Below the pieces are notes generated by a model. It was not told the DNA's origin. It ran no database searches and worked only from the letters and a program-made list of their open reading frames with translations. Source: Acidobacteriota bacterium (GTDB lineage Bacteria; Acidobacteriota; Thermoanaerobaculia; Multivoradales; Multivoraceae). Taken from it: a DNA stretch of 64,000 bases. Shown here one piece after another: positions 41,689 through 60,721 of this stretch (positions are counted from its first letter, which is position 1; every line of letters begins with the position of its first letter). The position numbers and the translations under genes were made by a program. The DNA is taken from NCBI GenBank assembly GCA_029263415.1, contig JAJCXN010000051.1, positions 248,001 through 312,000 on the forward strand, given 5' to 3'.

Positions 41689-42045
41689 GGGGGCGTCTGG
41701 TTTCGACGGGAAATCATACGTGTTCGAGGTTGCGTGTCGAGGGCTTTCCGCTCGTTATCACGGAAAGAAAACACAACTGCCAACGATAATTTGGCTCTGG
41801 CGGCTTAGCCGTCACGCTGTTCCTGATCTTGTGAGTCGCTAGAACGGGAAATCAGCGCTACTAACGCGATTTGATGGCCTCTCGATTGCTCCGCTACAGA
41901 GGCCAGATACTTAGCAGAGCTAGCAGCATCGTGGGTGGCTCACTACCCAAGCGTTGTTTGCGAAACTCAAACTAGAGAGACACACACGTAGATGCCTCGT
42001 CGACGGATTTTTCGGACGTGGGTTCGATTCCCACCGCCTCCACCA
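41689..42045 (+). ncRNA. ssrA: Transfer-messenger RNA (tmRNA)
   Basis: 357 bases. The 5' part GGGGGCGTCTGGTTTCGACGGG is the conserved tmRNA start, and the 3' end GTTCGATTCCCACCGCCTCCACCA is the T-loop and acceptor with encoded CCA. The acceptor pairs 41689-41695 with the 3' strand. The tag reading frame at 41779-41808 encodes ANDNLALAA and a TAG stop. The tRNA-like part has no anticodon. With SmpB it rescues ribosomes stalled on broken mRNAs and marks the product for proteolysis. It is in one piece, not a permuted two-piece form. Confidence 0.97.
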
Positions 42046-48551: not shown

Positions 48552-48962
48552 ATGATTCCATCCAGCGCATCACCACCATCACGTCTTCGCCAAGCTAGGT
48601 CACGCCAAGCCGGTGAGGGGCGCTTTCAGGCGGTCATTTGGCTGATCATCATCGTATGGGTGTTCCTCGCAGGCTTCGAGTTCATCCCGACCCGCTACCG
48701 CGTTTCCGAGTTCGAGGACGCGGTTCGAGCAGCCGGGGAACGCGCCGGGCAGGTCGGCGGCAGTGCCGCCAAGATCAAAGGCCAGCTGTTATGGGAGGCG
48801 AATCAACTCGATCTTCCAGTTAACAAGGACAACCTGAACGTGGTCGCCAACACCAGCTTTGTGCGCATCGACGCCGCGTACACGGTGCCGATCAAGCTGC
48901 CGCTCTACACTTACAATTGGCAAGTAACACACGAGCTGCGACGCAAGGTGTTCCGCTTCTAA
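48552..48962 (+). CDS. DUF4845-like single-pass membrane protein
   Basis: 136 residues. A basic N-terminus, one membrane helix (FQAVIWLIIIVWVFLAGFEF, about 25-45), and an outer domain: YRVSEFEDAVRAAGERA, then ANQLDLPVNKDNLNVVAN and IDAAYTVPIKLPLYTYNWQVTHELR. This resembles DUF4845, which is typically encoded just after lepB in other bacteria, and the position here agrees. The function is not known. It ends the lepB group; pyrF is on the other strand after 45 bases. Confidence 0.7.
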   Translation: MIPSSASPPSRLRQARSRQAGEGRFQAVIWLIIIVWVFLAGFEFIPTRYRVSEFEDAVRAAGERAGQVGGSAAKIKGQLLWEANQLDLPVNKDNLNVVANTSFVRIDAAYTVPIKLPLYTYNWQVTHELRRKVFRF

Positions 48963-51597: not shown

Positions 51598-51655
51598 GGT
51601 GCTGGTTCTCGACCAGTACCTCTTTAGTGGCGCTGGTTCTCGCCCAGTACCTCAT
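51598..51655. repeat. Two imperfect 31-bp repeats, each with a dyad
   Basis: GCTGGTTCTCG(A/C)CCAGTACCTC occurs at 51601 and at 51632, period 31. The first copy holds GGTGCTGGT (51598-51606) pairing with ACCAGTACC (51612-51620), 9 bp including one G-T pair; the second copy keeps CTGG/CCAG only. It lies between the divergent pyrK and alkaline-phosphatase-like genes and could be an operator pair or 5' UTR hairpins. Confidence 0.6.
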
Positions 51656-51693: not shown

Positions 51694-53535
51694 ATGTCCG
51701 CACATCTTCCAGGCATGCTCGCCGAACCACCTTACACATCGAGCTCGCGCATCACCAAGGCGCTGGTGCCGGTGGTGTGCTCGCTGCTGCCCGGGTTCCT
51801 CGCCGGGATTCAGTTGGCCGGCCTTCTGTTCTTCTTGAATCCGCACTGGCCGTTCGAGGCCAGCGCACTGCTGCGGACCACCGCTCTATATTCGGTGCTG
51901 CTCGCGAGCGGTTCAGCGCTGTTGGTCTTGCCCTTCACCTGGGGCCGCCCCGACCGCGCCCGCCGGATCTTGCCGTGGGCGCTTTTTATTGCGTTTGCCA
52001 CCGCCGGCGTGGTGCACTGGGTGCACGCCGCTCGCTTCAATTTCTTCTTGCCTGCAGGCATCAATCGCCGCTTGATCAAGGCTGCGCTTTGGCTCTCGCT
52101 TGCAGCGGTGATCACTTTTTACACCGCACTCTTGCACTCACTACAGCAACGCAGCTACGGGCGCCGCAGCAAGGCCGGCTTCGTGCTGATCGCGCTCCTT
52201 GCGAGCTACGTCGTGTTCGAGCGGCGGGACGCCTTCAAACCGCAATCCGAACCGGCCCCTCGGTCCTCGACCATTCCGACCCTAGAACACCCAACCTTGC
52301 TGGTCGTCGGCATTGAGGGACTAACGCTCGACGTGGTCTTGCCACTTGCCGAGCAAGGCGAATTGCCGTTCCTTGCCCAACTCCGCAGGCAAGGTAGCGC
52401 TGGCCGGCTGGCAGGCATCGCGCCCTCTCAACGCATCCCCTCATGGTTCACTCTGGCCACCGCGAAATTTCCCTTTCGTCACGGCATGGTAGGGGATCGT
52501 CGCTACTCCGCAGGCTTCGTCCAAGAAGGCCTGGAGTTCCACCTGACCCCCGTTGGTCTCGGTTTTAGACGATGGGGAATTCCCGGAGGCGAATTACCGG
52601 GCAATACGCCTCCCTCGGACAGCGCCCTGGCCCTGTGGCAGATCACTGCCGGGCTCGGTATTGACACCGCTGTACTCGACTGGCCGGGCGCGGCCTTGGC
52701 GGCGTCGTCACAACAGGTCCTCGGCCTCAACGCGACGCTGTTCGCGGCGGAAACCGCTGCTGTCGATCCCGAACAACTCTCTGAGAGCCCCGCGGTGTTG
52801 GCTGGGTCGCCGCTGTCTGACCGATTAGCCTTTGCCCAGGATGTGGAGATCGCGGAGCGGGCCCACTTGTGGCTCGCGCGTGGCCAGCGCCCAAGTGCGG
52901 TGTCGCTTGACTCGGAACTCGCGTCGCCAGGAGGTCGCACACCTTCTGAGCCAGTGGCCGAGCCAGTGGCCGATCTGGCCGCCGAGATCGACTCCGCAAC
53001 AACCAGTGGTCGAGCGCTGTTTGTCACTTTGAGCGGAGTGCTTGAGATTAGTCGTGACACGTTCGGCGCCTACTCGAGCGTCCAGTTTGAAGGACTGCTC
53101 GGCGATGAGCGCGAGCGGCAGGCCGAACGATTGCGGGCGTACTACCGGGCCCTTGACGACGTTCTCCGCGATCTCTGGGCAGAGGTTCCCGAACCGCGCT
53201 GGATGGTGATCGTCTCGCCCTACGGACTCCGGTCGCGCGAGGGCGCAGAACGGCTCGGCTCGTTGATCAGGCCGCAGCGCGATTTCGAAGGGAAGACCAG
53301 CAACGCGCCCGACGGGGCCTTCCTCGCCTATGGACCAGCGATTGAGCCGGGCCGCTTCGTTTCGCGCATGGAGATCACCGATCTCGCGCCTACCATCCTC
53401 TATGGTACAGGGCTGCCTGCGGCTCGCGATTTTGACGGTCGCGTGCGCACCGAGGTGTTTCGCACCGATTGGCTCAAGCAACACCCCATCACCTACGTTC
53501 CGTCATACGAAACGGGGCTCCGGGGTCCGCCTTAG
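51694..53535 (+). CDS. Polytopic membrane protein with degenerate alkaline-phosphatase/phosphodiesterase domain
   Basis: 613 residues. Five hydrophobic helices (about residues 20-185) are followed by an alkaline-phosphatase-superfamily domain: LLVVGIEGLTLDVVLPLAEQ, then GSAGRLAGIAPSQRIPSWFTLAT and FPFRHGM, matching the start of the type I phosphodiesterase fold. The metal ligands look changed: GID is GIE; the usual SDHG is SPYG (VSPYGLRS); and the late GxH before the PEG/PDG turn is TSNAPDG without His. So it may be a pseudoenzyme. It may act on or sense lipid head groups in the envelope. A PVAEPVAD-type short repeat lies at about 420. Confidence 0.7.
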   Translation: MSAHLPGMLAEPPYTSSSRITKALVPVVCSLLPGFLAGIQLAGLLFFLNPHWPFEASALLRTTALYSVLLASGSALLVLPFTWGRPDRARRILPWALFIAFATAGVVHWVHAARFNFFLPAGINRRLIKAALWLSLAAVITFYTALLHSLQQRSYGRRSKAGFVLIALLASYVVFERRDAFKPQSEPAPRSSTIPTLEHPTLLVVGIEGLTLDVVLPLAEQGELPFLAQLRRQGSAGRLAGIAPSQRIPSWFTLATAKFPFRHGMVGDRRYSAGFVQEGLEFHLTPVGLGFRRWGIPGGELPGNTPPSDSALALWQITAGLGIDTAVLDWPGAALAASSQQVLGLNATLFAAETAAVDPEQLSESPAVLAGSPLSDRLAFAQDVEIAERAHLWLARGQRPSAVSLDSELASPGGRTPSEPVAEPVADLAAEIDSATTSGRALFVTLSGVLEISRDTFGAYSSVQFEGLLGDERERQAERLRAYYRALDDVLRDLWAEVPEPRWMVIVSPYGLRSREGAERLGSLIRPQRDFEGKTSNAPDGAFLAYGPAIEPGRFVSRMEITDLAPTILYGTGLPAARDFDGRVRTEVFRTDWLKQHPITYVPSYETGLRGPP

Positions 53536-53550
53536 CGGCCCTGCGGCACT

Positions 53551-53991
53551 CTAAGAAGCGGTCTTGACGAGCTCGGGCTTGCGATCATGGGCGGCCTTGC
53601 CCTCCTCGTGGCCGCCGTCGGCAGATCTCGAACCGATGGCAGACGAATCGGGGCCGCCACCAGTGATACACCGGCCGTCCATCTTCGCCCCTTCCTCGAT
53701 CACCATCGTCGGACTGGTCAAGGTGGCCTCGACGCGGGCGCTCGACGCCAGCTCGATCCGCCTGCTTGCTCGAACCTCGCCGGTCAAAGTGCCCGAGACA
53801 AACAAGCGGCCGACCTCAACGTCGGCTTCGATCACGCCTTGCTCGCCAACCACGAGGTCGCCCTCCGACCGTATCGTGCCGGTGAGCTTGCCGTCGACGC
53901 GGAAAGTGTCCTCGAAGACCAACTCGCCTTGAATGTGACTGCCTGCGTCGAGAAAGCCATTGAGCTCTCCAGAGCGATCGCCTTTGAACAT
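53551..53991 (-). CDS. Bactofilin
   Basis: 146 residues, DUF583 bactofilin core: FLDAGSHIQGELVFEDTFRVDGKLTGTI, then repeated beta-helix strands such as EGDLVVGEQGVIEADVEVGRLFVSGTLTGEV and RRIELASSARVEATLTSPTMVIEEGAKM. Bactofilins polymerise without nucleotide into filaments that position proteins or shape the cell. The hydrophilic tail is short. It follows parB on the same strand, 38 bases after the parB stop, which recalls bacteria where bactofilins are linked to ParABS-based chromosome organisation. Confidence 0.94.
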   Translation of the reverse strand: MFKGDRSGELNGFLDAGSHIQGELVFEDTFRVDGKLTGTIRSEGDLVVGEQGVIEADVEVGRLFVSGTLTGEVRASRRIELASSARVEATLTSPTMVIEEGAKMDGRCITGGGPDSSAIGSRSADGGHEEGKAAHDRKPELVKTAS

Positions 53992-54029
53992 GACCTAAGG
54001 GGCTCCTTTGTTGGCAGCGCTGATGCGTT

Positions 54030-54905
54030 TCAGCGCCCGATCACGAATTCGTAGAGGCGCATGAGCTCCTCTTCTGAGTGGAAGTGTATGCGGAGTTCTC
54101 CACCCGCACCGCGCCGGCGGATCTCAACCTTTGATTGCAGAGCTTGAGTCAAGCGTTGCTCAGCGGCCAACGCGTTAGCATCTGCGGCCTTGGCCTTGTG
54201 TTTGGCAGGCTGTGCAGGGAGCGCTCCGGAAACGGCAGCTTCGATATCGCGCGCGGACAAACCGTGCTCCACGGCCTTGGTGGCCAAAGCAATCTGGCGA
54301 TCGACCGCCGAAAGCGACAGCAGTGGTCTTGCTTGGCCTGGGGTCAAAGCTCCCTCGCGGAGGAGCTCGCGAACCTCCTCGGGCAGGCGCAAGAGGCGGA
54401 GCGCATTGGTCACAGTGGAACGGGCCTTGCCGACCTGTTCGGCGATCTGCGCCTGCGACGATCCGAACCGTTCGCGTAGCACCTGATAAGCCTCGGCTTC
54501 TTCGAGTGGGTTGAGGTCGGCGCGCTGGAGGTTCTCAACCAGCGCTAGCTCAAGGCGGTGCTGGTCGGAGTCAACCTCGCGTACGAGGATCGGCACCTTG
54601 GTCAGACCCGCCCGCTGGGCGGCTCGCCAACGGCGCTCACCAGCCAGGATCATGAAGTCACCGCCCGGCTCTTCCGTGACCACAATCGGCTGAATGATGC
54701 CCTGCGCCGCGATCGACGCAGCCAGGGCCTCTAGCTCAGCGTTGTCGAATTCGGTCCGGGGCTGCTCTTTGTTCGGCCGAACGCGCGTCACCGCAACCTC
54801 GTGAGCACCACCGCTTCTCTTTCGGGCCGCAGGTGGCGCGAGAGCGCCGGTGTCGCCCAACAGAGCGTCAAGGCCGCGGCCTAGACCCCGCTTTCGGGCG
54901 CTCAA
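54030..54905 (-). CDS. parB: Chromosome partitioning protein ParB
   Basis: 291 residues from a TTG whose bases overlap the parA stop (TTGA). N-terminal RGLGRGLDALLGD, then the CTPase/ParB motif region VTRVRPNKEQPRTEFDNAELEALAASI and GERRWRAAQRAGLTKVPILVR, then the helix-turn-helix that reads parS (AQIAEQVGKARSTVTNALRLLRLP, plus LTPGQARPLLSL). The C-terminal dimerisation part is short. With ParA and the parS site at 56482 it forms a chromosomal ParABS system. Confidence 0.96.
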   Translation of the reverse strand: MSARKRGLGRGLDALLGDTGALAPPAARKRSGGAHEVAVTRVRPNKEQPRTEFDNAELEALAASIAAQGIIQPIVVTEEPGGDFMILAGERRWRAAQRAGLTKVPILVREVDSDQHRLELALVENLQRADLNPLEEAEAYQVLRERFGSSQAQIAEQVGKARSTVTNALRLLRLPEEVRELLREGALTPGQARPLLSLSAVDRQIALATKAVEHGLSARDIEAAVSGALPAQPAKHKAKAADANALAAEQRLTQALQSKVEIRRRGAGGELRIHFHSEEELMRLYEFVIGR

Positions 54906-55723
54906 CGCCTGGTCCTCGCCAAGACCTCCCGCGCTAGCGAGAGGTAGGCCTGGGCTCCACGAGACTTGATGTCGTACTCAAGGACCGAGATCCCATGGCT
55001 CGGCGCTTCGGCAAGCCTCACATTGCGCGGCACGACGGTGTCGAAAACCCGGTCCGGAAAGTGACGGCGGATCTCGCGGACAACATCGCGCGCCAGGTTG
55101 ATTCGGTCGTCATACATGGTCAACAACACTCCAAGAATCCCCAACGACGGGTTGTGCCCGCCCTGAATCCTGGCGACCGTCGACGCCAGCTCGCTGACTC
55201 CTTCGAGCGCGAAGTACTCGCACTGGATCGGCACCAACACGTCGGTAGCTGCAACCAGCGCCATCACTGTCAGGTGCCCGAGCGACGGCGGGCAGTCAAT
55301 CAGGATGTAGTCATAGTTCTTGCGCACGGCGCCGAGAACCTCTCCGGCGGTGCGCTCCCACCCCTCCTGGCCCACGAACTCCACCTCGGCACCCACCAGC
55401 TCGCGATTCGCCGGAAGGAGGTCTAGATGCGGGAAGCCGCTCGGCCGCGTGGCCTCGGCGGCGCCCACCTCGCCGGACAACACGTCATAAAAGAGCGGCC
55501 CCTCCCCATCCCAGCCCAGGCCGCGACTGGCGTTGCCCTGCGGGTCGCTATCGACGATCAAGACTCGCCGCTCAAGAGCGCCCAGCGCTGCACCCAGGTT
55601 GATCGCGGACGTGGTTTTGCCCACGCCGCCCTTTTGGTTGACCACGGCCACGATCCGTCCCAATCGCCTGGGGGGGTTGGCCGTGGCTGCGGGCGCGCTC
55701 GGCGGCTGAGAGAAGTGGCTCAT
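54902..55723 (-). CDS. parA: Chromosome partitioning ATPase ParA
   Basis: 273 residues. Deviant Walker A NQKGGVGKTTSAINLGAAL near residue 29-47, Walker B YDYILIDCPPSLGHLTVMAL and DVLVPIQCEYFALEGVSEL. These are typical of the Soj/ParA family. It forms a nucleoid-associated gradient that moves ParB-parS complexes. A Pro/Ala-rich N-terminus of about 20 residues precedes the fold. It sits between rsmG and parB on the same strand in the classic origin-proximal order. Confidence 0.96.
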   Translation of the reverse strand: MSHFSQPPSAPAATANPPRRLGRIVAVVNQKGGVGKTTSAINLGAALGALERRVLIVDSDPQGNASRGLGWDGEGPLFYDVLSGEVGAAEATRPSGFPHLDLLPANRELVGAEVEFVGQEGWERTAGEVLGAVRKNYDYILIDCPPSLGHLTVMALVAATDVLVPIQCEYFALEGVSELASTVARIQGGHNPSLGILGVLLTMYDDRINLARDVVREIRRHFPDRVFDTVVPRNVRLAEAPSHGISVLEYDIKSRGAQAYLSLAREVLARTRR

Positions 55724-60418: not shown

Positions 60419-60509
<91 letters not shown>

Positions 60510-60627
60510 GTTTCAATGAACTAACCTGACTCTGAACTCGTGAACTTCTCTCTAACTTCGTCTCGCTGCGACCTTGACGGCGAAACACTGGGCTCTCGCG
60601 CTGGTCTAGTTTGCGCTTGAGCCCCTA

Positions 60628-60721
<94 letters not shown>

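Follow-up and report, generated by a model that had tools for sequence, protein, structure and literature searches.

The window, the whole 64,000-nucleotide stretch analysed here, derives from a 6.9 Mb Acidobacteriota genome in 60 contigs and carries on its forward strand an ATG-initiated open reading frame (51694..53535) with a 613-aa product. The reading frame, its domain match, its genome matches and the selection acting on it describe a gene for a five-helix membrane protein with an apparently inactive type I phosphodiesterase (NPP-type) domain. PF01663 (type I phosphodiesterase/nucleotide pyrophosphatase) is the sole Pfam family above its cut-off in this protein (E 4.1e-14; 53.4 bits against a gathering cut-off of 23; residues 202-530) and is matched by 32 of the 33 members of alignment A3, while NCBIfam returned zero families for the protein at E values up to 1. 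All 60 genomes of the family and order, its own included, contain a match (weakest best E 1.9e-52), which rules out a chance or misread frame.

The searches covered Acidobacteriota, plus whatever was brought in by an A1 search of named genome contigs. A single-protein search of those contigs returned 0 loci, and its repeat with A1 returned 57, which are counted at the order level because A1 recovered them; they are mostly titled Thermoanaerobaculia or Acidobacteriota and mostly metagenome-assembled, and it is from these relatives that the class of the window's genome is deduced. Holophagales, Vicinamibacteraceae and a Deltaproteobacteria bin also occur among the titles. With 30 loci (L095-L124) excluded beforehand, there were 154 loci with a match; dropping rows that agreed completely across 300 residues left 126, and the exclusion of L088, which was too short, left 125. 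The tally of 121/125 includes paralog matches and is not an ortholog count.

Downstream of the gene, on the opposite strand, lies a bactofilin-parB-parA run (window 53551-55723), convergent with it. Each of these three genes occupies the same place in 51 of the 57 named loci, the sets differing per gene (L091 is without bactofilin, and L072 ends before parB) and some absences being contig ends. A bactofilin-Par link is known from Myxococcus and may, by analogy, exist here too. The signal peptidase gene lepB is found upstream on the same strand in 51/57 named loci, and is non-adjacent where pyr genes intervene. Upstream of the gene, on the other strand, the window has pyrK, as do 14 of the 19 other-class loci examined for context and 8 of 20 from elsewhere in the class; this common position supports orthology for those loci, and for the remainder orthology rests on sequence. 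Since the neighbours are convergent or divergent, no transcript is shared with them, and the arrangement speaks for an old locus.

Several further features were observed around the gene. Between lepB and the pyr genes the window encodes a 136-aa protein (48552-48962), and the same protein precedes the gene in 32 of the 57 named loci; it has no Pfam match, and its identification as DUF4845 is unsupported. Two 22-base direct repeats (51601-51622 and 51632-51653) lie between pyrK and the 613-aa gene. They are identical at 21 of 22 positions, are spaced 31 bases apart and each contain a CTGG..CCAG palindrome; there are no other copies in the genome at up to two mismatches, and the corresponding stretch of L038 and L082 has no repeated 12-mer. 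The pair could represent a local duplication or serve as an operator. A sigma-70 promoter scan for the gene found 0 sites (0.2 expected). Two adjoining tRNA-Ser genes (cga, gga; minus strand; 60420-60721) and a tmRNA gene (41689-42045) are also present in the window.

Predicted fold and membrane topology

An AlphaFold2 model built with 25 orthologs (pLDDT 76, pTM 0.73) places five long helices at residues 17-179 (51742..52230 on the forward strand), followed by an alpha/beta domain of which parts of 337-421 are poorly modelled. The helices span residues 17-48, 56-82, 86-114, 121-151 and 157-179, and are predicted to cross the membrane on the basis of the models and the loop charges. Averaged over 60 rows, net charge is +0.75 at the N-terminus, -0.28, +2.65, +0.07 and +4.50 in loops 1-2, 2-3, 3-4 and 4-5, respectively, and +0.53 after the last helix. 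This pattern fits a predicted topology with the N-terminus inside and the fold domain outside, in the periplasm.

The domain at residues 196-601 (52279..53496, forward strand) has an NPP/alkaline-phosphatase-type fold according to Pfam, AlphaFold2 and VIA. Foldseek matched it to nucleotide pyrophosphatases/phosphodiesterases (NPPs) in the PDB at E 1.5e-9. In the VIA comparison with the PDB, the alkaline phosphatase PafA ranked first (Z 27.2; 318 residues; 3.3 A) and NPPs took ranks 3-20 (Z 25.9-26.6; 273-287 residues; rmsd 2.8-3.9 A), a Z gap of only 1-2 units that is too small for ranking the two against each other. The first-pass annotation, made from the sequence alone, had described an alkaline-phosphatase-type fold and five membrane helices. 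The PF01663 match and the NPP matches of the predicted structure bear out the former, and the helices are present in the model as predictions.

Modelled alone, the helix part reached a pLDDT of 88.7, and the PDB search with it gave no clear match (best Foldseek E 0.40; best VIA Z 8.8, to unrelated helical folds). PbgA, EptA and LtaS are absent among the 50 PDB matches listed for each helix-domain search, an absence that excludes no kinship with the helix domain of YejM, EptA or LtaS.

Catalytic positions in the window protein and its relatives

As the yardstick for the catalytic site we used relatives that look active, drawn from the window's own genome and order (L003, L005/L007, L008, L163 and L164). 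They form six rows and five distinct genes, L002 being a second piece of L008; weaker own-genome matches such as L006 lie outside the set. All five genes have 7/7 catalytic residues, namely those of GxDG, the Ser nucleophile, the D..H pair, SDHG and a C-terminal His. Two of the active-looking proteins, L003 (G000:C51 near 12-14 kb) and L007 (G000:C3 near 60-62 kb), also have long C-terminal extensions that by eye resemble TPR repeats.

The window protein has 0/7 of these residues, lacking the nucleophile and all six Asp/His metal ligands. E208 (52315..52317) stands at the metal-ligand Asp of GxDG, and R247 (52432..52434) at the nucleophile Ser/Thr. The Asp and His of the D..H metal motif are replaced by L450 (53041..53043) and R454 (53053..53055), the Asp-His of SDHG by P509-Y510 (53218..53223), and the C-terminal metal-ligand His by N537 (53302..53304), all on the forward strand. 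Every one of these assignments comes from the alignment and from an hhalign profile-profile comparison of A1 with the five active proteins (probability 100, E 5.6e-39), which is independent of the main alignment and gave the same residue pairings. phmmer additionally placed R247 opposite the Thr of autotaxin KTFPN, which we take to be the nucleophile. The GIE, the SPYG and the absent His reported earlier are therefore as described, and the list of losses grows by the nucleophile and the D..H pair. A shifted nucleophile was considered and rejected: a Ser/Thr occurs within one column in just 15 of 60 order-level rows and is no conserved feature.

Relatives in the order and class are similarly depleted. 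Among the 60 order-level rows, window protein included, 18 keep none of the seven residues, 34 keep one and 8 keep two; the residue mostly kept is the GxDG Asp (34/60). A further 25 rows from the class keep none (24 rows) or one (1 row), so that the maximum over all 85 class rows, again with the window protein, is 2/7. The proposal that this is a pseudoenzyme is strongly supported at the sequence level, by 0-2/7 residues in 60/60 order-level rows and 0-1/7 in 25/25 class rows against 7/7 in the five active genes, and by the average conservation of the old catalytic columns. The canonical catalytic mechanism has very probably been lost. The losses are conserved across the ortholog alignment of the class, and the GIE substitution is variable: it is present in the window protein and no fixed feature, and because Asp persists there in so many order-level rows GIE alone is weak evidence, the other losses being firm.

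The 34 rows from other Acidobacteriota classes are more graded, with 0, 1, 2, 3, 4 and 5 of the seven residues kept in 2, 5, 4, 6, 11 and 6 rows, respectively. The SDHG Asp is missing in all 119 rows. Ser/Thr at the nucleophile column is found in 6/119, comprising 1/60 order-level rows (L091, oddly aligned), 0/25 class rows and 5/34 rows of other classes (L154, L178, L181, L182 and L184); in 38/60 order-level rows this column is Arg. An Asp/His/His triad formed by the D..H pair and the C-terminal His is kept in 0/60 order-level, 0/25 class and 20/34 other-class rows (L146-L152, L154-L156, L158, L166-L172, L177 and L181). All 20 lack the SDHG Asp, and 18 of them lack the nucleophile Ser/Thr. 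Judged by their residues, these relatives are possible one-metal binding proteins, and the two that combine triad and nucleophile Ser/Thr (L154 and L181) might still be partly functional. The last His of the triad keepers lies two residues farther from the following Gly than in L003/L005; as three of the five active genes have a His at both places, equivalence of the shifted His is likely, though unproven.

In an unrooted tree, loss of the triad corresponds to 6 changes (gains and losses pooled), of which at least 3 are forced by well-supported branches. This tree comprises 87 rows, including 23 of the 60 order-level rows, and was built by a quick method; its root is arbitrary, several of its deep forks are weak, and one row (L185) is very long. 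The suggestion of several independent losses is partly right: within the class the catalytic loss is inherited, mostly by common descent, and the 6 changes concern the phylum. The active site seems to have decayed in steps.

Constraint and conserved positions

Purifying selection acts on the gene in one related group, a close set of 19 loci chosen by eye. Of the 171 pairs in this set, which are not independent of one another, 127 survived the dS filter, with a median dN/dS of 0.155 in the fold domain and 0.159 in the helix part. Medians for usable subsets of neighbouring genes were 0.129 for parA (71 pairs), 0.175 for parB (25), 0.237 for pyrK (43) and 0.241 for rsmG (63). A gene decaying on its way out of these genomes is very improbable: the varying number of catalytic residues across the phylum and an internal stop in one listed match (G038) would fit it, but a dN/dS of ~0.16 in both halves, in that one group, and the presence of a match in 60/60 genomes speak against it.

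The seven old catalytic columns lie at conservation percentiles 56, 46, 34, 33, 64, 50 and 21 within the domain, i.e., they are of average conservation. Low dN/dS combined with average catalytic columns indicates that the protein is maintained for some reason other than its former catalysis. The top 70 conserved positions are spread over the fold and the helices and include none of the seven catalytic places; the high triad conservation in the column scoring arises by construction. Strongly conserved positions in the helix part are P33, G34, G38, N49-P50 and L119-P120-G122, the last two groups on the predicted outer side, while H148, R153, Y155 and S159 are found at a charged loop (149-160) predicted to lie inside. 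After the helices, R177-R178, D579, D581-G582 and P603-S604-Y605 stand out. The juxtamembrane Arg177-Arg178 pair (52222..52227, forward strand) is RR in 59/60 order-level and 14/25 class rows; in other classes, the six commonest pairs at these positions (29 of 34 rows listed) do not include RR.

The spread of the conserved positions, away from the catalytic places, could also be expected of a structural scaffold, in which the inactive domain would offer a periplasmic protein-docking surface, for example to the neighbouring signal peptidase or an envelope machine, and bind no small ligand. The recurrent company of lepB on the same strand and of bactofilin, parB and parA on the opposite strand agrees with such a role. 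However, synteny by itself is no proof of interaction, the bactofilin-parB-parA run is convergent and the pyr genes divergent, leaving no common transcript, and lepB is not always adjacent. We regard a scaffold as a somewhat unlikely explanation.

Other conserved positions bear on whether the protein could still be an enzyme or metal binder, with a site rebuilt in the domain or located in the helix part. The DxDG motif (D579-x-D581-G582; 53428..53439, forward strand) is conserved in the family, with D579 in 58/60 and D581 in 57/60 order-level rows, the latter also in 17/25 class rows. The active paralogs have P, T, P, A and P at 581, and thus no Asp in any of the five. Position 466 is acidic in 51/60 and position 590 in 55/60 order-level rows, and in most active paralogs neither is. 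H111 (55/60) and H148 (60/60) are conserved in the helix part, where an Asp-His dyad has been suggested as a site in PbgA (PMC7018646). The triad kept in 20/34 other-class rows means that partly built sites can persist. Against a rebuilt site, each of the five active paralogs also has H263, D488 and D563, and four of them have D579, which makes these residues look structural; the nucleophile column is mostly Arg among old catalytic columns of only average conservation. A surviving or rebuilt active site is improbable on this evidence. D581 appears to be the best candidate for something new, and the DxDG motif, being absent from the active paralogs, would leave some room for a new binding site.

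Candidate role and comparison with known systems

With its catalytic residues lost, the protein probably binds or senses something instead. The explanation that we tentatively favour, with a little less than even confidence, is an inner-membrane pseudo-phosphodiesterase that faces the periplasm, is anchored by five helices and would bind its target without cleaving it; it may be a sensor of envelope lipids with an architecture like that of YejM/PbgA. The five N-terminal helices would hold the NPP-type domain at the periplasmic side, and the domain, which lacks what its family needs to form the two-metal site and the phospho-enzyme intermediate, would bind a phosphate-bearing envelope molecule, such as a lipid or lipid-linked precursor in the outer leaflet of the inner membrane, and would not cut it. 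The helix bundle and the conserved charged loop might then signal ligand binding to a partner controlling the synthesis of the envelope. This mechanism is drawn by analogy with YejM, and the binding-sensor role itself is put forward as one possibility, somewhat short of probable. The host genome encodes LpxC.

A broader and rather doubtful proposal is that an envelope regulator arose Acidobacteriota-wide from an NPP-type phosphodiesterase, independently of YejM, by stepwise dismantling of the two-metal site, giving a receptor for a lipid or other phosphate compound, perhaps around DxDG. The nucleophile is missing in 113 of the 119 rows. Pseudoenzymes are common, so the protein is ordinary in kind; what is unusual is the class-wide occurrence, the fixed locus, the complete loss and the partly intact relatives. 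The latter, in sister classes, would let the dismantling of a two-metal site be read. Among the titles and abstract openings listed from open-licence literature, none concerned such a protein in Acidobacteriota. For this phylum, which has been little studied, the protein would offer a specific candidate for a sensor or scaffold in the membrane.

NPPs of the PF01663 family (Xac NPP, ENPPs) and PafA share the fold of the window protein over about residues 196-601, and differ from it in that it lacks the nucleophile and the six metal ligands and has five helices in front. The active phosphodiesterases of its own genome (L003, L005/L007 and L008) have a homologous domain, and their catalytic set is complete where that of the window protein is empty. 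The membrane helices of LtaS, EptA and MCR-1 also number five. Like the window protein, these enzymes combine membrane helices with an outside domain of the alkaline phosphatase superfamily; they are active, with a Thr nucleophile and metal ligands (PMC7576196), whereas the window protein has lost those columns, the comparison being one by description.

YejM/PbgA/LapC resembles the window protein in having a 5TM domain, then a periplasmic alkaline-phosphatase-superfamily domain (predicted here), and a basic region after the helices. YejM belongs to the sulfatase/LtaS branch of the superfamily and not to PF01663. DUF3413 (PF11893) had no match in the whole genome at E 0.001, nor in the Pfam scan of the protein, with a positive E. 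coli control. LapB-ribbon had one match in the genome, in a 461-aa frame that we take to be more likely RadA. With no DUF3413 and no clear LapB, the YejM-LapB-FtsH circuit is probably absent, and a partner would differ.

YejM/PbgA is reported to consist of a 5TM domain and a periplasmic alkaline phosphatase superfamily domain in which catalysis is lost or debated (PMC7018646, PMC7576196, PMC6921655). For YejM, a role in sensing lipid A together with LapB has been proposed (PMC7773988), and its helix part is reported to be essential and the basic region behind the helices to bind lipid phosphates (PMC6921655). Another group reports that YejM has bound metal and metal ligands, a Thr nucleophile and an Mg-dependent phosphatase activity requiring the 5TM domain (PMC7576196); the residues reported include Thr302 and Asp268, and the window protein has a counterpart of neither. 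A protein reported to be active and to have metal ligands is thus an imperfect precedent for one that has apparently lost both. Among the membrane-anchored members of the alkaline phosphatase superfamily whose catalysis is lost or debated, YejM/PbgA is, to our knowledge, the best known; the window protein would be a second such case, from the PF01663 branch and found in every sampled genome of its order.
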